Positions 26,451 to 35,228 of a stretch of DNA of 64,000 nucleotides are shown piece by piece. Within the stretch, counting starts at the first letter, position 1; each line of letters opens with the position of its first letter. Made by a program: the position numbers and the translations under genes. The stretch spans positions 62,001 to 126,000 of the forward strand of contig CALUZB010000004.1 of the NCBI GenBank assembly GCA_944325195.1. Direction: 5' to 3'. The stretch comes from an uncultured Desulfovibrionaceae bacterium (lineage in GTDB: Bacteria > Desulfobacterota > Desulfovibrionia > Desulfovibrionales > Desulfovibrionaceae). A model generated the notes under the pieces. It had not been told where the DNA came from, did no database searches, and saw only the letters and a list, made by a program, of their open reading frames with translations.

Positions 26451-28139
26451 ATGAATACCAAACGCGAATTCCAATCGTATGACGATTTCAAGGCCAACTT
26501 CCAACTGGAAGTGCCTGACAACTTTAACTTTGTGTACGACTTTCTCGATGTGGCGGCCCATGAACGCGGCAACGAGCCGGCCCTGATTCATGTGGACAAC
26601 CACGGGGTGCGCCGCGATTATACCTTCAACTGGTTTAAAGAGCAGTCGTCGCGCCTGGCCCACGCCCTGAAAGCCAGAGGGGTGAAGAAAGGCCATAAGG
26701 TGATGATCATTTTGTACCGGCGCATTGAGTTCTGGGTGGTATCCCTGGCCCTGCAACGCCTTGGCGCAATAGTGGTATCCGCCCCGTCCCAACTCACGCC
26801 CAAAGACATCGCTTTCCGTGTGGATTTCGGTAAAATCGACGCACTCATCGTGGAAGACAGCATCACTCCGCGGGTGGAAGAAGCCGGCAGACAGTGCAAA
26901 CTGCCGGAACTGTTGATTGAAGTGCCTGATGAGCACTTTTCCGGCACCAAGGGCTGGCTGAACTACTTTGAAATTTTACAGGGGCAGCCGTCCAGCTTCC
27001 CCCGCCCGGATAACCCCGCCGAGAACTCCGGCGGGCGCGATCCCATGCTGGTGTTCTTTTCATCGGGCACTTCCGGTATGCCCAAAATGGTGTGTCACGA
27101 CGCCCGCTATCCGTTGGGTCACTATCTCACCGCCGCCTATTGGCACGATCTGAACCCGGGCGATATCCACTTCACCCTGGCTGATACCGGCTGGGGCAAG
27201 GCGGTTTGGGGCAAATTTTACGGGCAGTGGATGGCCGGTGCGGTTGTCTTTGTTTGGGATTTCCGCGGCAAATTCGAGCCGGCCAAGTTGCTCCAGGTGC
27301 TTTCCGAGCATAAAGTCACCTCGTTTTGCGCCCCGCCCACGGTTTACCGCTTCCTGATCCGCGAAGACCTGGGCAGATACGATTTAAGCTCACTCCGCCA
27401 CTGTACCACTGCCGGTGAACTGCTGAATGAAAGCGTGTTCCTGGAATGGAAAAAAATGACCGGCAAACCGATTTATGAAGCTTTCGGTCAGACTGAAACT
27501 GTATGCGTCTTGCTCACCGTCAAATGTATGCAGCCCAAACCCGGCTCGGTGGGGCGCCCTGCTCCCGGTTGGGACGTGGTGCTGGTGGACGAGCACGGCA
27601 ACGAATGCCCCCCTGGTGAGGAAGGGGAAATTTGCGTGCGGCTTGACCCGACCCGGCCGGAAAATCACCCGGTCGGTCTGCTGCGGGAATATCTGTATGA
27701 CCCGGAAAGAACCGCCGAAGCCCTCACCCCCAGCCTGTACCACACAGGGGATAAAGCCTGGATGGATGAAGACGGTTATTACTGGTTCCTGGGCCGGGTG
27801 GACGACTTAATTAAAAGTTCCGGATACCGCATCGGCCCGTTTGAGGTGGAAAGCGCCCTGGTATCGCATGCGGCCGTGGTGGAAGCCGCTGTTACCGGCG
27901 TGCCCGACCCGGTGCGCGGGCAGGCGGTAAAGGCATCGGTGGTGCTGGCAGAGGGGTTTACGCCCAGTGATGAGCTGACCAAGGCGCTTCAGGATCACGT
28001 AAAGAAAGTGACCGCTCCCTACAAGTATCCGCGCATCATTGAATATGTGAAAGAGTTGCCTAAAACCATTTCCGGCAAAATCCGTCGAGTGGAAATCCGG
28101 GAAAAGGACGCTCAGGGGGCGGCGGCCAAAGCGGATTAG
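26451..28139 (+). CDS. AMP-forming acyl-CoA synthetase
   Basis: 562 residues of the ANL superfamily. The ATP-binding loop is FFSSGTSGMPKMV (about 203-215), the adenylate motif YEAFGQTETVC, the hinge TGDKAWMDEDGYYWFLGRVDD, then LIKSSGYRIGPFEVES. The catalytic Lys is in PKTISGKIRRVEIRE near the C-terminus. The family converts a carboxylic acid + ATP + CoA to the acyl-CoA. The GRVDDLIKSSGYRIGPFE pattern and overall length resemble medium-chain (ACSM-like) enzymes, but the acid is not provable here. It follows the XRE/cupin regulator gene. Confidence 0.9.
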   Translation: MNTKREFQSYDDFKANFQLEVPDNFNFVYDFLDVAAHERGNEPALIHVDNHGVRRDYTFNWFKEQSSRLAHALKARGVKKGHKVMIILYRRIEFWVVSLALQRLGAIVVSAPSQLTPKDIAFRVDFGKIDALIVEDSITPRVEEAGRQCKLPELLIEVPDEHFSGTKGWLNYFEILQGQPSSFPRPDNPAENSGGRDPMLVFFSSGTSGMPKMVCHDARYPLGHYLTAAYWHDLNPGDIHFTLADTGWGKAVWGKFYGQWMAGAVVFVWDFRGKFEPAKLLQVLSEHKVTSFCAPPTVYRFLIREDLGRYDLSSLRHCTTAGELLNESVFLEWKKMTGKPIYEAFGQTETVCVLLTVKCMQPKPGSVGRPAPGWDVVLVDEHGNECPPGEEGEICVRLDPTRPENHPVGLLREYLYDPERTAEALTPSLYHTGDKAWMDEDGYYWFLGRVDDLIKSSGYRIGPFEVESALVSHAAVVEAAVTGVPDPVRGQAVKASVVLAEGFTPSDELTKALQDHVKKVTAPYKYPRIIEYVKELPKTISGKIRRVEIREKDAQGAAAKAD

Positions 28140-28266
28140 CTTTGTAACTGAGGACTTTCAAGGTTGAAGCCGCTTCCGGCCCTGCCCGCCGCAAAGCCGG
28201 TAAGTCCCGGGCAGAGCGCTTTCGGCAACCTGGGGCCTGACCCGGCAAGAAAGCGCAAAAATCCGC

Positions 28267-28295
28267 TTGACAATAACCTGGTTATTGGGTATGAA
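28267..28295 (+). promoter_or_regulatory. trp promoter
   Basis: TTGACA (28267-28272), a 17-bp spacer and TATGAA (28290-28295), 22 bp before the first leader-peptide ATG. The perfect -35 and standard spacing make it the likely start of the trp transcript. Confidence 0.75.
28271..28287. promoter_or_regulatory. Candidate trp operator (17-bp palindrome)
   Basis: CAATAACC-T-GGTTATTG is a perfect 8-bp inverted repeat about one central base. It lies in the -35/-10 spacer, where a bound repressor would block RNA polymerase. It does not match the E. coli TrpR box (CTAGTT/AACTAG). The repressor is not encoded nearby. Confidence 0.6.
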
Positions 28296-28316
28296 ATTCA
28301 ACAAGAGGATTAAACA

Positions 28317-28400
28317 ATGATTGCAACCGCAAACAACATCTTTACCATTTCCGGATCCCATTTCGTTTGGTGGCGTGGTTGTTTGCGGCCACTAATCTGA
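28317..28400 (+). CDS. trpL: trp leader peptide 1 (tandem Trp codons)
   Basis: 27 codons starting MIATANNIFTISG and containing HFVWWRGCLRPLI before the TGA. The two adjacent TGG codons are at 28368-28373. AGAGGAT precedes the ATG. CCGCAAACAAC (28327-28337) pairs with GTTGTTTGCGG (28378-28388), giving the 1:2 stem. CGGCC (28386-28390) can instead pair with GGCCG of the terminator arm. A ribosome paused on the Trp codons would mask the 5' part of region 2, while one at the stop codon would cover CGGCC and allow the terminator. This is classical trp attenuation logic, read directly from the sequence. Confidence 0.85.
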   Translation: MIATANNIFTISGSHFVWWRGCLRPLI

Positions 28401-28426
28401 TATTATCCTTATTAATCTGCAGACTC

Positions 28427-28460
28427 AAGGGCCGTTAATTTCCGTTAACGGCCCTTTTTT
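28427..28460 (+). terminator. trp attenuator 1
   Basis: AAGGGCCGTTAA (28427-28438) and TTAACGGCCCTT (28445-28456) form a perfect 12-bp stem with a 6-nt loop, followed by a T run to 28460. Confidence 0.9.
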
Positions 28461-28480
28461 ATTGAACAAAGGTAACGGTA

Positions 28481-28543
28481 ATGAATCAACAATTTGTATC
28501 TTCAATCTTCAACTGGCGCTGGCAACCCTGCATCATCACTTGA
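28481..28543 (+). CDS. trp leader peptide 2 (Trp-Arg-Trp)
   Basis: A second short ORF of 20 codons, beginning MNQQFVSSIF and ending NWRWQPCIIT, placed between attenuator 1 and a second terminator. AAAGG (28468-28472) is 8 nt before its ATG. Trp codons are at 28514-28516 and 28520-28522. Two Trp in 20 residues, again just upstream of a terminator, is very unlikely by chance in a trp leader. TTCAATC (28501-28507) can pair with GATTGAA (28564-28570), and GCTTTT (28575-28580) with AAAAGC of the terminator arm, giving possible 1:2 and 2:3 alternatives. The pairings are weaker than in leader 1. Confidence 0.75.
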   Translation: MNQQFVSSIFNWRWQPCIIT

Positions 28544-28595
28544 GAGGGGTCTGCTTTGTCGCTGATTGAACCGCGCTTTTGCCGCATTGAACCTG

Positions 28596-28628
28596 AAAAG
28601 CCGCTCTTCTCCAAAGAGCGGCTTTTTT
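28596..28628 (+). terminator. trp attenuator 2
   Basis: AAAAGCCGCTCTT (28596-28608) pairs perfectly with AAGAGCGGCTTTT (28614-28626) around a CTCCA loop, followed by T residues to 28628. It is a second complete intrinsic terminator before trpE. Confidence 0.9.
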
Positions 28629-28707
28629 ATTGAGAGGTTTCAATCCACTTCCCGCCCCATCCGCCAAACTGACTGAACCCGCCGACGGATAGGGGCCGTG
28701 CGGATTG

Positions 28708-28727
28708 CCTCTCCCTCAAGGGAGAGG
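28708..28727 (+). other. Stem-loop upstream of trpE
   Basis: CCTCTCCCT/AGGGAGAGG, a perfect 9-bp stem with a minimal loop and no T run. It lies 90 bp before the trpE start. It may affect mRNA stability or trpE translation; no function can be shown. Confidence 0.4.
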
Positions 28728-28817
28728 TTACGGCAAAACGATCTCATCGGCTCAAAGATTTGTCAATCACTCTTTTCCCCCGGAAGGGGGCGGTTTCAAA
28801 CCACAAAGGAACTTTTG

Positions 28818-30260
28818 ATGAACATAGAACTTACCCAAGCAGTCAGAAAGTTAGACGGCGATCTGGATACTCCGATCAGTATGTACCTGAAAACCGTGGG
28901 CCAAGGCAACGGCTTACTGCTGGAAAGCGCTGAAGTGGACGGGCGCTGGGGCCGCTACAGCATTATCGCCGCCAATTTCCTCTTGGAACTCGGCTGCCGG
29001 GACGGTCGGCTCAGCATAAAAAGCCAAGACCAACGCCTGGCGCCGCTTGCCGAATTTGAGGGCATGCCGTTTGATTTGGGCCTGAAAGCGGTAATGCGGG
29101 AACTCAGCCTGACCACCGCTGAAACACCGTACCAACTGCCGCCCATTACCAGGGGATTATACGGCTATCTGGGTTATGGTCTGGCCGGGATTTTCCAACC
29201 CAAGCTCAAAGCCTGCATTCCGCCCGGGCAGGCCGAAGCCTGCCTGGTGCTGCCCGGAGATTTGGTTCTGTTCGATCATCTCTATAATCAGGTCTTCCAC
29301 ATTTCGTTGTTGAACGGCTGCCAATCCCCCGCTAACCAAAGCTTTGCCGCGCCGCTTTCACCCAAAATCGGGCCGGTAAAAATCAGCCCCGGCAAAGCGG
29401 AATATATCGGCATGGTCTCTAAAATCAAAGAACTGATTTGTCAGGGGGAGGCCATTCAAGTGGTTGTTTCCACCCGTTTTTCCGCGCCCATAGAGGGTTG
29501 CCCGTTCAATATTTACCGTAATTTGCGCGCAATCAACCCCTCTCCCTATATGTTTTTCATGCAGTTTGACGAGCTGTGCCTGTTCGGCTCGTCGCCGGAA
29601 GCGTTGGTGCGCTGCTCTGAAAACGTGCTGGGGCTTTCGCCCATTGCCGGCACCAGGCCGCGGGGCAACACCAAGGGCGAAGACAATCTGTTTGAGGGAG
29701 AATTGATGGAAGATCCCAAAGAAAAGGCGGAGCATGTCATGCTGGTTGACCTGGGGCGCAACGACCTGGGCCGAGTGGCCGCGCCCGGCAGTGTTAAGGT
29801 TGAACGGTTTATGGAAGTGGAAAAGTTCTCACATGTAATGCATCTGACCTCATATCTGAGCGCCACCCTGAAACCCGGTCTGGACGGCGTGGATATTGTT
29901 GCCGCAACCTTCCCGGCCGGGACCGTGAGCGGAGCGCCCAAAGTAAGAGCTATGGAAATTGTGGCGGAAAATGAGGGAGCATTTCCCGGTCTGCACAACG
30001 GCAGAGGCCCCTATGCCGGAGCAATCGGCTGGCTTGGTCTGGATAAGGACAAGGTCAACCTGGATCTCGGCCTGACCATTCGCAGCATGTGGGTACGCGA
30101 CGGCAAGCTGAACTGGCAGGCTGGGGCGGGGATTGTTTACGATTCCGACCCGGAACTGGAATGGAAGGAATGTGGGAACAAGGCGAAAGCCGTGTTAGCC
30201 GCAATAGAGCACAACCCGGAAGAGCAAGAAGGAGCAAGCCATGTTTCTGCTCATAGATAA
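28818..30260 (+). CDS. trpE: Anthranilate synthase component I
   Basis: Uses chorismate and ammonia (from TrpG) to make anthranilate. 480 residues from ATG 28818, with AAAGGA 7 nt upstream; an in-frame start at 28698 would lie inside the leader stem-loop. The tryptophan feedback site LLESAE is at 34-39, so the enzyme should be allosterically inhibited by Trp. The chorismate-binding core shows SPYMFFMQF, SPEALVR, PIAGTRPRG, HVMLVDLGRNDLGRV, FPAGTVSGAPKVRAMEI and YAGAIGWLG near the C-terminus. It overlaps the trpGD gene by 20 bp, indicating translational coupling. Confidence 0.97.
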   Translation: MNIELTQAVRKLDGDLDTPISMYLKTVGQGNGLLLESAEVDGRWGRYSIIAANFLLELGCRDGRLSIKSQDQRLAPLAEFEGMPFDLGLKAVMRELSLTTAETPYQLPPITRGLYGYLGYGLAGIFQPKLKACIPPGQAEACLVLPGDLVLFDHLYNQVFHISLLNGCQSPANQSFAAPLSPKIGPVKISPGKAEYIGMVSKIKELICQGEAIQVVVSTRFSAPIEGCPFNIYRNLRAINPSPYMFFMQFDELCLFGSSPEALVRCSENVLGLSPIAGTRPRGNTKGEDNLFEGELMEDPKEKAEHVMLVDLGRNDLGRVAAPGSVKVERFMEVEKFSHVMHLTSYLSATLKPGLDGVDIVAATFPAGTVSGAPKVRAMEIVAENEGAFPGLHNGRGPYAGAIGWLGLDKDKVNLDLGLTIRSMWVRDGKLNWQAGAGIVYDSDPELEWKECGNKAKAVLAAIEHNPEEQEGASHVSAHR

Positions 30261-31866
30261 TTACGACTCATTTACCTATAACCTGGTGCACGCCTTTGAA
30301 AACCAGGGCATCAGTCCGGACGTGGTGCGTAATGATGAACACCGTCTGCTTGAGCTGGCCGAAAACCCGGAATTGAAGGCGGTTTGCATTTCGCCCGGCC
30401 CCAGCAACCCTGACAATGCGGGCTTATGTCTGCAATTTCTTTCACGTCTGCCCAAACAGATACCCGTGTTCGGCGTTTGCCTGGGGCACCAGATTCTCGG
30501 ACGTTTCGCCGGAGCCCGGATCAAGGTAAATTACCGGATCATGCACGGCAAGCAGTCGGAAGTGCAGCATAATCATCTGGGCCTGTTTAAAGGCCTCAGC
30601 GCGCCAATGACCGTGGCTCGCTATCATTCCCTGGTAGTTGACGAGGCAAGCTGTCCGGACTGCCTGGAAATCACCGCCCGTACCCCGGAGGGGGAAGTCA
30701 TGGCACTGACCTTCAAAGACCGGCCGTGGAGCGGCGTGCAGTTCCACCCGGAATCCATTCTCACCCCGGAAGGAAACCAGCTGATTGCCAACTTCCTGGA
30801 AGAAAACGGTCTGAAAGCCGGACAAGCCGCATGCCGGAGCAACAGCTTAAAAGCCTTGCCGATACAGATACCAAAAGTACTTGAAGCTTTGGCTGGCGGA
30901 GAAGATCTGGATAAAGAAACAGCGCGCCACATTTTCAACCGCCTGATGAACGGCGAACTGACCCCGGCCCAGTCCGGCGCATTGCTGCTGGGGCTGCGGG
31001 CCAAAGGGGAAACCAGCGTGGAGTTGCAAATGGCCGCTGAAGCGGTGCTGGACAAGGCCGTACAATTGCCCGGTCTGGAGCAGATTACCGAACCGGTACT
31101 TGACGTTGTCGGCACCGGCGGCGACAGTAAATTCTCCTTCAACTGCTCCACGGCCACAGCGCTCACCCTGGCCGGCCTGGGCTACAAGGTGCTTAAGCAC
31201 GGCAACCGTTCAGTATCTTCGCGCTGCGGCAGTGCCGATGTGCTGGAGAAGCTCGGCCTTCCTCTGGATCTGCCGCCGGCCGCCGTGGCCCCAACCCTGC
31301 AAAAGGACAATTTCGCTTTTCTGTTTGCGGTGAACATGCACCCGGCCTTCAAGCACATCATGCCGGTGCGCCGGGAGCTGGGCGTGCGCACTCTGTTCAA
31401 CATGCTCGGCCCCCTGACCAACCCGGGCCGCCCCAGCCGTCGCCTGATCGGGGTGGCCGGCCCGCACATGCTGTTGCTGCTTGCCCACGCCCTGGCTGCC
31501 ATGTCCGTCCAACGCGGAGCAGTGGTGCACGGCAGCGGCGGATATGACGAGCTCACTCCCCTTGGCCCGGCAGAAGTGGTGTTCATCGACCAGGGTAAAA
31601 TCAGACAAACCACCATTCGGCCGGAAGACTACGGGTTTTCCCCTTGCACAGAGCGGGATCTGGCTATCTCCGGAGCGGACGAGGGTTGCGCGGTGTTGCG
31701 GGAACTGCTGTCCGGGCGCGGCTCCAAACCCATGCGGGAGATGCTGGCCCTGAATGTGGGTTTGGGCATTTACCTTATGGAATCCAACCTGGAACTGGCG
31801 GAATGTATGCACGCCGCGCGGGCGGCGGTTAACTCCGCCGCGGGCAGGAGGTTTATCCATGCTTGA
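30241..31866 (+). CDS. trpGD: Fused anthranilate synthase component II / anthranilate phosphoribosyltransferase
   Basis: 541 residues. Residues 1-195 form the class I glutamine amidotransferase TrpG: LLIDNYDSFTYNLVH, SPGPSNP, the nucleophile in GVCLGHQ (Cys80), and His169/Glu171 in VQFHPES. From about 205 on it is TrpD: GTGGDSKFSFNCSTA (291-305) and KHGNRSVSSRCGSAD (319-333) bind PRPP and anthranilate. It supplies NH3 to TrpE and then transfers phosphoribosyl to anthranilate. G-D fusions also occur in enterobacteria. The ORF ends inside trpC by 8 bp (ATGCTTGA). Confidence 0.97.
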   Translation: MFLLIDNYDSFTYNLVHAFENQGISPDVVRNDEHRLLELAENPELKAVCISPGPSNPDNAGLCLQFLSRLPKQIPVFGVCLGHQILGRFAGARIKVNYRIMHGKQSEVQHNHLGLFKGLSAPMTVARYHSLVVDEASCPDCLEITARTPEGEVMALTFKDRPWSGVQFHPESILTPEGNQLIANFLEENGLKAGQAACRSNSLKALPIQIPKVLEALAGGEDLDKETARHIFNRLMNGELTPAQSGALLLGLRAKGETSVELQMAAEAVLDKAVQLPGLEQITEPVLDVVGTGGDSKFSFNCSTATALTLAGLGYKVLKHGNRSVSSRCGSADVLEKLGLPLDLPPAAVAPTLQKDNFAFLFAVNMHPAFKHIMPVRRELGVRTLFNMLGPLTNPGRPSRRLIGVAGPHMLLLLAHALAAMSVQRGAVVHGSGGYDELTPLGPAEVVFIDQGKIRQTTIRPEDYGFSPCTERDLAISGADEGCAVLRELLSGRGSKPMREMLALNVGLGIYLMESNLELAECMHAARAAVNSAAGRRFIHA

Positions 31867-32644
31867 CAGGTTCCGGAAAGCGAAAGCACAGGAAATTGCA
31901 CGGCTGCAGCAGCTTAAACAGGCTGGAGCAATGCCCGCGCCTTGGCCGGGGGTGAGACCCGGCTTTGCCGCCGCATTAATGGGGCCGGATTGCGCCATCA
32001 TCGCTGAATATAAAAGGGCCTCGCCCAGCAAGGGAGCAATCAACCTGGAAATAAGCCCGGCGCAATGCGCGCGGGAATATGCCGCGGCCGGGGCAGATGC
32101 CCTGTCCGTCCTCACAGAAGCAGTCTATTTCAAGGGAAGCCTGGATTATCTGTTCGCCATGCGGTCCGCGCAATCCGGACCGGAAGCTCGTCTCCCCCTG
32201 TTGCGCAAGGATTTCATTTTTCAGCCGCTCCAGGTGGAAATGACCGCGGCCACACCGGCCTCCGCCCTACTGCTGATTGCCAGAATGCTGGACAGAGAAC
32301 AACTGGAAGCTCTGATCCGGCTTGCCGCCTCATTCGGCCTGGAATGCGTGGTGGAAATCTTCGATGAAGCCGATTTTGAGCTGGCCGCTTCCGCCGGGGC
32401 CGGCCTCATTCAGGTCAATAACCGTGATCTGGCCTCCCTGCAAACCGACTTGAACCGTTCGTTTAAGTTGGCGCATCTGAAGCAGAGCGGACAGGTCTGG
32501 ATCAGCGCCAGCGGCATCACCCGCCCCACCGATTTGCAGGCCCTGCATGCCGCGGGCTATGACGCGGTGTTGGTGGGAAGCAGTCTGATGGCGGGGAAAA
32601 GCCCGGGCCAGGCCCTGCACCAACTGCGAGGCTGCAATGCCTGA
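31859..32644 (+). CDS. trpC: Indole-3-glycerol phosphate synthase
   Basis: Ring closure of CdRP to indole-3-glycerol phosphate. 261 residues from ATG 31859 (GGAGG just upstream), overlapping trpGD by 8 bp. TIM-barrel signatures: AEYKRASPSKGAIN (catalytic Lys), LLRKDFIFQPLQV, VNNRDLASLQTDL and ISASGITRPTDL with VGSSLM at the phosphate site. It is a separate gene, not fused to trpF as in E. coli. Confidence 0.97.
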   Translation: MLDRFRKAKAQEIARLQQLKQAGAMPAPWPGVRPGFAAALMGPDCAIIAEYKRASPSKGAINLEISPAQCAREYAAAGADALSVLTEAVYFKGSLDYLFAMRSAQSGPEARLPLLRKDFIFQPLQVEMTAATPASALLLIARMLDREQLEALIRLAASFGLECVVEIFDEADFELAASAGAGLIQVNNRDLASLQTDLNRSFKLAHLKQSGQVWISASGITRPTDLQALHAAGYDAVLVGSSLMAGKSPGQALHQLRGCNA

Positions 32645-33278
32645 GTTCCCGTATAAAAGCCCGCTGCTGAAAGTCTGCGGTCTGACCAGGCGCCAAGATG
32701 TTGTTGCCTGTGTCGATCTGGGCATCGATTTAGTCGGCTTCATTTTTGTGCCGGACAGTCCCCGGGCAGTAACCCCCGGGCTGGTCGCTTCCTTTCCCAC
32801 AGGCAAAGCTTTGCGGGTAGGCGTTTTTGCCGGCTTAAGCCCGGACGAAGTACTTGAGATTTCCGCTCAGGCGCGTCTGGATTTAATTCAACTGCACGGC
32901 GGGGAGAACGTGGACTACTGCCGGGCTTTGGACGGAAAACGGCTTATTAATGTGCTGTGGCCTGAAAACATGTCGGAACAGGCCCTTCAGCAAGCAATTG
33001 AGGCCTTTTCGCCCTGTTGTGCCGCCTTTCTGTTCGATGCCGGCAAAAGCGGCGGGGGCAGCGGGCGCCCCTTGCAGTGGAAGCGCCTGACCAGACTGCA
33101 CCTTGCCAAGCCCTGGTTCCTGGCGGGCGGCCTGAACCCGGATAACTTCAACCAGGCTCTGCAGGACTGCCGCCCCACCGGTCTGGACTTCAATTCCGGG
33201 GTGGAAATTGCGCCGGGCGTAAAGGACATTGAATTAGTTAAACAAATCATGAGACTTAAGGAGTCAGCAAATGCGTAA
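32637..33278 (+). CDS. trpF: Phosphoribosylanthranilate isomerase
   Basis: Amadori rearrangement of PRA to CdRP. 213 residues. KVCGLTRRQDV holds the catalytic Cys; LIQLHGGE, FLAGGLNPDNF and LDFNSGVEIAPGVKD (catalytic Asp and phosphate loop) are intact. It overlaps trpC by 8 bp (ATGCCTGA) and trpB by 8 bp (ATGCGTAA), so translation is coupled on both sides. Confidence 0.97.
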   Translation: MPEFPYKSPLLKVCGLTRRQDVVACVDLGIDLVGFIFVPDSPRAVTPGLVASFPTGKALRVGVFAGLSPDEVLEISAQARLDLIQLHGGENVDYCRALDGKRLINVLWPENMSEQALQQAIEAFSPCCAAFLFDAGKSGGGSGRPLQWKRLTRLHLAKPWFLAGGLNPDNFNQALQDCRPTGLDFNSGVEIAPGVKDIELVKQIMRLKESANA

Positions 33279-34458
33279 AGGATATTTCGGCAATTTCGGC
33301 GGTCAGTTCGTACCGGAACTGTTGATGCCGCCTTTAATCGAATTGGAAGCGGCCTATGCGGAGATCGGGCAATCGCCCCAATTCCGGCAGGAACTTGCAG
33401 ACCTGCTGCATAATTATGCAGGCCGGGAAACCCCGCTCACCTTCTGCCCCAATCTCTCCGCAAAACTGGGATTTGACTTGTGGCTGAAACGCGAAGACCT
33501 GCTGCATACCGGTGCCCACAAAATGAATAATACTCTGGGACAGGCTTTGCTGGCCAGGAAAATGGGCAAGTCGGCTCTGGTGGCGGAAACCGGGGCCGGA
33601 CAACATGGTGTGGCCACTGCCGCCGCGGCTGCCCGGCTTGGACTTGAATGCACCATTTTCATGGGCGCAACCGATGTGCAGCGCCAGGCCCCCAACGTGG
33701 CCCGCATGCAGGTGCTGGGGGCAAAGGTAGAGGCAGTGGAAAGCGGAACCAGAACCCTGAAAGATGCCATTAACGCTGCCTTGCGCCATTGGATTTCCAG
33801 TCAGGAAACAACCCATTACTGCTTCGGCACTGCCGCCGGGCCACACCCGTTTCCCACCCTGGTGCGCGATTTTCAAACAGTTATCGGTAAGGAAACAATC
33901 CAACAGGTGCAGGCCCAAACCGGCTGGCCCCCGTATCTTGTGGTTGCCTGCGTCGGCGGCGGCTCCAATGCAATCGGCATGTTCCAGCCTTTTGCCGTCA
34001 ACCCGGAGCTTGCTCAGGTGCAACTGGTCGGGGTGGAAGCGGCCGGAAGCGGCCGGCCCGGCTGTTACCACTCGGCGTCGCTCAGTTTGGGCCGCCCGGG
34101 CGTGCTGCACGGTCAATACTCCATGCTGCTTCAAGATGAAAACGGACAGATTGAGCCCTCGCACTCCATAGCCGCGGGGCTCGACTATCCGGGCGTGGGA
34201 GCGGAACATGCCTACTTCCGGGAAATCGGCCGGGTGCAATATGAGGTCATCAACGACAGGCAGGCCCTGAACGCCTTCCACGCCTTATCAGCCGGGGAAG
34301 GGATTATTCCGGCTCTTGAATCCGCCCATGCCCTGGCCTGGGTGCTGGAGAACCGCGGCCGCATCCCCCAAGGCAAAACCGTGGTTGTTAATCTATCCGG
34401 GCGCGGCGACAAAGACATGGACATCATTTCTGAAATCAACAACAGGCAGGTAAACTGA
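33271..34458 (+). CDS. trpB: Tryptophan synthase beta chain
   Basis: Condenses indole with serine to L-tryptophan using PLP. 395 residues. The PLP lysine lies in HTGAHKMNNTLGQ, the catalytic Glu region is ETGAGQHGVATA, the phosphate loop is VGGGSNAIGMF, and the C-terminus has VVNLSGRGDKD. AAGGAG is present before the ATG. This is the standard TrpB1 type expected to pair with the adjacent TrpA. Confidence 0.98.
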   Translation: MRKGYFGNFGGQFVPELLMPPLIELEAAYAEIGQSPQFRQELADLLHNYAGRETPLTFCPNLSAKLGFDLWLKREDLLHTGAHKMNNTLGQALLARKMGKSALVAETGAGQHGVATAAAAARLGLECTIFMGATDVQRQAPNVARMQVLGAKVEAVESGTRTLKDAINAALRHWISSQETTHYCFGTAAGPHPFPTLVRDFQTVIGKETIQQVQAQTGWPPYLVVACVGGGSNAIGMFQPFAVNPELAQVQLVGVEAAGSGRPGCYHSASLSLGRPGVLHGQYSMLLQDENGQIEPSHSIAAGLDYPGVGAEHAYFREIGRVQYEVINDRQALNAFHALSAGEGIIPALESAHALAWVLENRGRIPQGKTVVVNLSGRGDKDMDIISEINNRQVN

Positions 34459-35228
34459 TGAGCAGGTTACAAACAAAAATCGAGCAGGCGGAACAGGCGG
34501 GCCGCCTGGCCCTTATTCCCTTCCTGACCGCCGGCTATCCCAGCCTTGACGGTTTTTGGAAAGCGCTGCGGGAGCTGGACGAAAGCGGTGCGGATATTAT
34601 TGAAATCGGGGTGCCGTTCTCCGATCCGGTTGCCGATGGCCCGGTGGTTGAAGCCGCATCGTTACAAGCCCTGGAAAACGGCGTCAGTCTGAGCTGGATT
34701 CTGCAGGAATTAGCCGCACGCAAAGGCCACTTCCAGGCCGAACTGGTGCTGATGGGCTACTACAATCCGTTTTTGCAATACGGCCTGTCCCGGTTCGCGG
34801 AAGCTGCGGCAGCAGCCGGGGTGGCCGGGGTGATCGTTCCGGATCTGCCCTTGAATGAAGCGGCCCCGCTCCGCCGGGCCCTGGCTTTGACCGGGCTGGA
34901 TTTGATTGCCCTGGTCGGCCCCAACACCCCGCCGGAACGGATGCAGGAATATGCAGAACAGGCGGCGGGGTATGTGTATGTTGTTTCCGTAATGGGCATC
35001 ACCGGCGTCCGCCAGGGACTTCCCCCGGCGGTGAAAGCAACGCTTGAGCGGGCCCGCAAGGCATTCCCGGCTCTTCCCATTGTGCTGGGCTTTGGAGTAA
35101 AGGAGCCCGGCCAACTGAAAGAAGTGGCTGAGCAATTGGACGGAGTGGTTTTCGGAAGCGCGCTGCTCAAACACCTTCAGGCCGGGGGCAGTGCTGAAGA
35201 ATTCATGCGGCAATGGGTTCAAGCATAA
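34458..35228 (+). CDS. trpA: Tryptophan synthase alpha chain
   Basis: Cleaves indole-3-glycerol phosphate to indole and glyceraldehyde 3-phosphate, channelling indole to TrpB. 256 residues. Catalytic Glu and Asp are in IIEIGVPFSDPVADGP; VIVPDLPLNEA and the VSVMGITGVRQG phosphate loop are present. The start shares one base with the trpB stop (TGATG). It is the last gene of the operon, followed by a large hairpin. Confidence 0.98.
   Translation: MSRLQTKIEQAEQAGRLALIPFLTAGYPSLDGFWKALRELDESGADIIEIGVPFSDPVADGPVVEAASLQALENGVSLSWILQELAARKGHFQAELVLMGYYNPFLQYGLSRFAEAAAAAGVAGVIVPDLPLNEAAPLRRALALTGLDLIALVGPNTPPERMQEYAEQAAGYVYVVSVMGITGVRQGLPPAVKATLERARKAFPALPIVLGFGVKEPGQLKEVAEQLDGVVFGSALLKHLQAGGSAEEFMRQWVQA

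Follow-up and report, generated by a model that had tools for sequence, protein, structure and literature searches.

The window, a stretch of 64,000 nucleotides from an uncultured Desulfovibrionaceae bacterium, contains the tryptophan operon trpE-trpGD-trpC-trpF-trpB-trpA (28818-35228). In searches against NCBIfam, trpB, trpA, the TrpG domain and the TrpD domain scored above the curated cut-offs, and the other genes of the operon were equivalog matches below cut-off. trpG and trpD are fused in a single ORF of 541 amino acids (30241-31866). Between the promoter and trpE lie, in this order, leader ORF 1, terminator 1, leader ORF 2, terminator 2 and a dispersed repeat (Table 1).

Table 1. Features upstream of and including trpE (positions are those of the window)
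Feature	Position	Strand	Details
Candidate promoter	28267-28295	+	-35 TTGACA (28267-28272), spacer 17 nt, -10 TATGAA (28290-28295); read from sequence
Perfect 7+1+7 palindrome AATAACCTGGTTATT	28272-28286		between -35 and -10
Leader ORF 1	28317-28400	+	MIATANNIFTISGSHFVWWRGCLRPLI, then stop; ATG 28317; Shine-Dalgarno AGAGGA; Trp-Trp codons 28368-28373
Unit 1 segment 1	28327-28337	+	CCGCAAACAAC; perfect pairing with 28378-28388
Unit 1 segment 2	28378-28390	+	partner of 28378-28388 is segment 1; partner of GCGGCC (28385-28390) is segment 3 (GGGCCGU)
Intrinsic terminator 1 (segments 3 and 4)	28427-28460	+	13-pair stem 28427-28456, U tract to 28460; -19.4 kcal/mol
Leader ORF 2	28481-28543	+	MNQQFVSSIFNWRWQPCIIT, then stop; ATG 28481; Shine-Dalgarno AAAGG; Trp codons 28514-28516 and 28520-28522 (Trp-Arg-Trp)
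Unit 2 segment 1	28521-28529	+	GGCAACCCU; overlaps second Trp codon; pairs with 28546-28555
Unit 2 segment 2	28542-28557	+	GAGAGGGGUCUGCUUU; segment 1 or the 5' arm of terminator 2 (segment 3) as alternative partners
Intrinsic terminator 2 (segments 3 and 4)	28595-28628	+	14-pair stem within 28595-28627, U tract; -20.1 kcal/mol
Dispersed repeat	about 28635-28826		start GTTTCAATCCACAGTCGCCCC, end ..GGTTTCAAACCRCAAAGGAATTTTTGATGAA
trpE	28818-30260	+	first gene of the operon; NCBIfam match; ATG at 28818

Transcription from the candidate promoter would be expected to start near 28303. This promoter was absent from the output of a stricter consensus promoter scan. Most trp leaders of relatives, stand-alone and tandem, have one promoter of the TTGACN type, located 5' of the (first) leader ORF. 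A promoter search of the window leader, which covered the start downstream of attenuator 1 that the earlier note had named as evidence against its proposal, found no candidate between units 1 and 2. The palindrome between the -35 and -10 elements exists as a single exact copy across the whole genome, and a genome-wide search found no regulon for it; it is possibly an operator to which a repressor or other factor could bind.

The dispersed repeat between terminator 2 and trpE occurs across the genome in about 20 complete or partial copies, among them those on L002-L008 and L231-L241. Its terminal sequence means that the repeat carries a Shine-Dalgarno sequence together with an ATG, and in about half of the copies (trpE included) this ATG opens an ORF of more than 40 amino acids. 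Judging from these copies, the repeat is a portable translation start that provides trpE with its ribosome-binding site.

Both units upstream of the trp genes consist of a short ORF that combines a ribosome-binding site with a cluster of Trp codons, an intrinsic terminator between the leader ORF and the first structural gene, and a segment 2 that can pair with either segment 1 or segment 3 in mutually exclusive hairpins. The two terminators stand in series with no promoter match between them, the arrangement that defines a tandem attenuator leader. The two Trp-rich leader peptides and the 11 perfect pairs of the 1:2 stem in leader 1 are located as the earlier note described them. Its positions for the terminators also held (28427-28460 for the first; for the second, given as 28596-28628, the terminator begins one nucleotide earlier), but we counted 13 and 14 stem pairs where it had 12 and 13 bp. 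The interval that it assigned to the attenuators, 28261-28817, proved too long: the attenuator part stands, but 28635-28817 belongs to the dispersed repeat.

We scanned both strands of the window for short ORFs with WW or WxW located 10-70 nt before a terminator. Only these two ORF-terminator pairs were found, and not even one such pair appeared in 300 dinucleotide shuffles of the leader. The predicted 2:3 antiterminator duplexes have energies of -13.3 kcal/mol in unit 1 (p = 0.024, compared to 1000 shuffled versions of the intervening sequence) and -17.9 kcal/mol in unit 2 (p = 0.004, same test), whereas pairing of segment 2 with segment 3 across units gives -10.6 and -8.0 kcal/mol. Because segment 2 pairs better within its own unit, the two units look insulated from each other. 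At equilibrium both units favour the terminator fold, which means that any switch has to be kinetic. This is accepted for trp attenuation and agrees with such a mechanism, though it does not prove it. The predicted position of the ribosome fits the same scheme, in that segment 2 would be free while the A site holds a Trp codon and covered once it holds the stop codon. Searches of 27501-29500 with the Rfam Trp_leader model (RF00513) and with the T-box covariance model gave no match up to E = 5, and an Rfam scan of the leader yielded sub-threshold chance matches only.

The survey of relatives used sequences 5' of trpE from 156 genomes, the window genome among them, that belong to the same family and order. 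One Trp-rich unit was found in about 125, no unit was recognised by the scan in about 25, and six have two units. The tandem genomes, which represent six genera in two families, are the window genome and five of the 155 relatives: G002 (L023), G018 (L055), G037 (L052, from another family), G064 (L163) and G131 (L106). G002 and G131 were missed by the automatic classification and were added by eye; G077, G137 and G223 were automatically flagged as tandem but rejected, the extra unit lying in coding sequence or being an unrelated hairpin. All six tandem genomes have a recognised promoter 5' of ORF 1 (weak in G002) and none between the units, and in five of the six ORF 2 starts 20-43 nt after terminator 1 (20 nt in the window). 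Antiterminator pairing exceeded that of shuffled sequences in 10 of the 12 units (p at most 0.024) and was not significant in the remaining two, one of which is unit 2 of G131. The tandem trp attenuators proposed in the earlier note are thus borne out in the anatomy of both units and recur before trpE in five other genera.

Antiterminator pairing was further analysed across the order, and 101 of 125 distinct units beat shuffled sequences at p < 0.05. The mean energy of native segment 2/segment 3 pairs was -21.6 kcal/mol, compared to -17.8 kcal/mol for cross-genome pairs, and none of 5000 permutations was as low, in a test that is inflated by kinship. Native pairs being stronger than cross-genome pairs, segments 2 and 3 co-vary, as the earlier note had suggested looking for in related genomes. 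This co-variation favours the attenuator reading for the family generally, as support and not as proof. G001, the only genome of the same genus in the comparison, gave no trpE or trpB match at 91% completeness while keeping a tyrA-like gene; it is possible that tryptophan synthesis has been lost there.

Many relatives have trpE behind a tyrA gene that ends in codons for ...WWWR... (for example L011, about 1300-1440, L013 and L012). An intrinsic terminator starts 17-49 nt past the tyrA stop codon in 36 of 47 genomes with tyrA-trpE, and in many of these bacteria the trp leader peptide seems to be the C-terminus of full-size tyrA. The WWW tail is also present in tyrA genes located away from trpE (G066, G142, G102, G088, G064 and G018), so the Trp codons look co-opted. 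Stand-alone leaders (GWWWR...GGDVR) resemble the tyrA tail.

The observed elements, their pairing potential, the single promoter candidate and the recurrence in relatives would be best explained if one transcript, starting near 28303, carried two complete ribosome-mediated Trp attenuators in series, a reading to which we assign a probability of about 0.74. When tRNA-Trp is charged, the ribosome would reach the leader stop codon and cover segment 2, the 3:4 terminator would form and RNA polymerase would be released. With uncharged tRNA-Trp, the ribosome would stall at the Trp codons, segment 2 would pair with segment 3 and the polymerase would continue; in unit 1, such stalling would leave GCGGCC (28385-28390) free for the 5' arm of terminator 1. 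Because the polymerase would have to clear both gates before trpE, read-through would be the product of two probabilities. Two gates would lower the repressed level and could make the response to Trp starvation steeper or wider, in a lineage with no detectable TrpR. We infer from this anatomy that ribosomes stall and transcription terminates, that the gates act serially (AND logic) and that the second gate brings a benefit. The weaker points of the serial reading are the modest antiterminator of unit 1 (p = 0.024), the greater stability of both terminators at equilibrium and the atypical spacing in unit 2, which has two Trp codons only and a stop-to-terminator gap of 51 nt, compared to 21-37 nt in other units.

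The main rival, which we consider unlikely, is that only one unit still senses Trp, its partner being a relic or a duplicate in decay that stops a constant fraction of transcripts. Tandem units do arise by duplication, most relatives manage with a single unit, and second units elsewhere show defects: that of G131 has an imperfect terminator along with its non-significant antiterminator, and that of G002 has a single Trp codon. The spacing of unit 2 in the window would also suit a relic. Both window units, however, retain a Shine-Dalgarno sequence, a cluster of Trp codons, a terminator that is close to perfect and 2:3 pairing beyond that of shuffled sequences; they have diverged from each other yet kept all these features, of which a relic would be expected to have lost some, and this counts against decay.

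Other explanations are much less probable. A separate start inside unit 1 could yield a second transcript under the control of unit 2 alone, but no result speaks in its favour, terminator 1 and ORF 2 are separated by just 20 nt, and the sole promoter-like match lies 5' of ORF 1, as it does in the other tandem genomes; we regard such a start as very improbable. Equally improbable is that the released leader RNA or leader peptide acts in trans and that actual control of trpE falls to the second attenuator. This has a precedent in peTrpL, the trp leader peptide of Sinorhizobium meliloti, reported as a trans-acting attenuator product (PMC7298713), but the anatomy of unit 1 is ordinary and the sequence gives no evidence for a trans role; moreover, such a role would be compatible with the serial reading and does not exclude it. 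Short ORFs are common, and Trp codons and hairpins might by chance happen to precede trpE, but the uniqueness of the two pairs in 64 kb, their failure to appear in shuffled leaders and the recurrence of such units before trpE in relatives leave this coincidence a negligible likelihood.

How the tandem arrangement arose was approached with a TrpE tree of 94 genomes. On this tree the trait needs six changes, at least five of which are forced by well-supported branches; three tandem genomes fall within one 15-row TrpE group, so a single early gain with subsequent losses is possible there. The two units of G064 are plainly duplicates (125 of 141 aligned bases identical), and, according to computed segment 2/segment 3 pairing, they would cross-pair. 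Their terminator cores, about 400 nt apart, are identical, and the start codon of the first leader is putative. The duplication appears to be recent and in tandem, and it may show how the arrangement of the window looked at an early stage. The units of G131 are also related (74 of 90 aligned bases identical), and those of the other four tandem genomes, the window genome included, show no clear similarity. A recent duplication was rejected for the window itself, where similarity between units 1 and 2 is no better than that of shuffled sequences. On balance, we lean slightly towards repeated evolution of serial ribosome-mediated Trp attenuation in this order, by duplication followed by divergence that would prevent cross-pairing; the second gate would replace a missing TrpR layer, and the arrangement would independently parallel the tandem T-boxes of Bacillota.

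Leader-peptide attenuators are textbook regulatory elements, and tandem switches for the same signal are documented for T-boxes and riboswitches. The window leader shares with the E. coli-type trp attenuator (trpL) a short Trp-containing ORF, mutually exclusive 1:2, 2:3 and 3:4 hairpins and an intrinsic terminator before trpE; unlike trpL, it has two complete units in series, with no TrpR found and no match to Rfam Trp_leader. In trp operons of Bacillota, two (rarely three) tRNA-Trp-sensing T-boxes may be arranged in series, and a pseudo-cooperative, digital-like response is expected from such independent switches for one ligand (PMC12452182). These tandem T-boxes are likewise same-signal switches in series before trp genes; however, a T-box binds uncharged tRNA directly, whereas the sensor in the window would be the ribosome translating the leader peptide, and no T-box match was found in the leader. 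The Salmonella mgtCBR leader also contains two attenuation ORFs, which respond to different signals (ATP and proline); its authors call a single attenuator normal and contrast mgtCBR with the metE leader and its two terminator sites (PMC3641672). In the window both units would respond to Trp, each with a terminator of its own. For D. vulgaris, an attenuator has been listed ahead of the aro-tyrA-trp supraoperon (PMC1173090). This tyrA-trp supraoperon of Desulfovibrio was seen in many of the surveyed relatives, which makes Desulfovibrionales the probable order of these genomes; in contrast, trpE in the window does not follow tyrA: it has a promoter of its own, and its two leader ORFs are stand-alone. 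In the open-licence literature we found no account of leader-peptide attenuators for the same amino acid in series; a description in a subscription journal is possible.

No TrpR-family gene was found in the 12 genomes searched, which included all six tandem genomes. As a control, the same search found TrpR in E. coli; B. subtilis also gave a match. According to a published survey (PMC5343134), many gammaproteobacterial groups conserve TrpR and other classes lack it. With no detectable TrpR, the second attenuator may supply the range that TrpR gives E. coli. According to models of ribosome-mediated attenuation, sensitivity depends on the number of regulatory codons (PMC1183508); two gates in series would be another route to sensitivity and range. 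The fresh duplicates of G064 and G131, the four diverged pairs and the single units of related genera form a natural series, which, in bacteria with no TrpR found, makes the benefit of a second attenuator directly testable.
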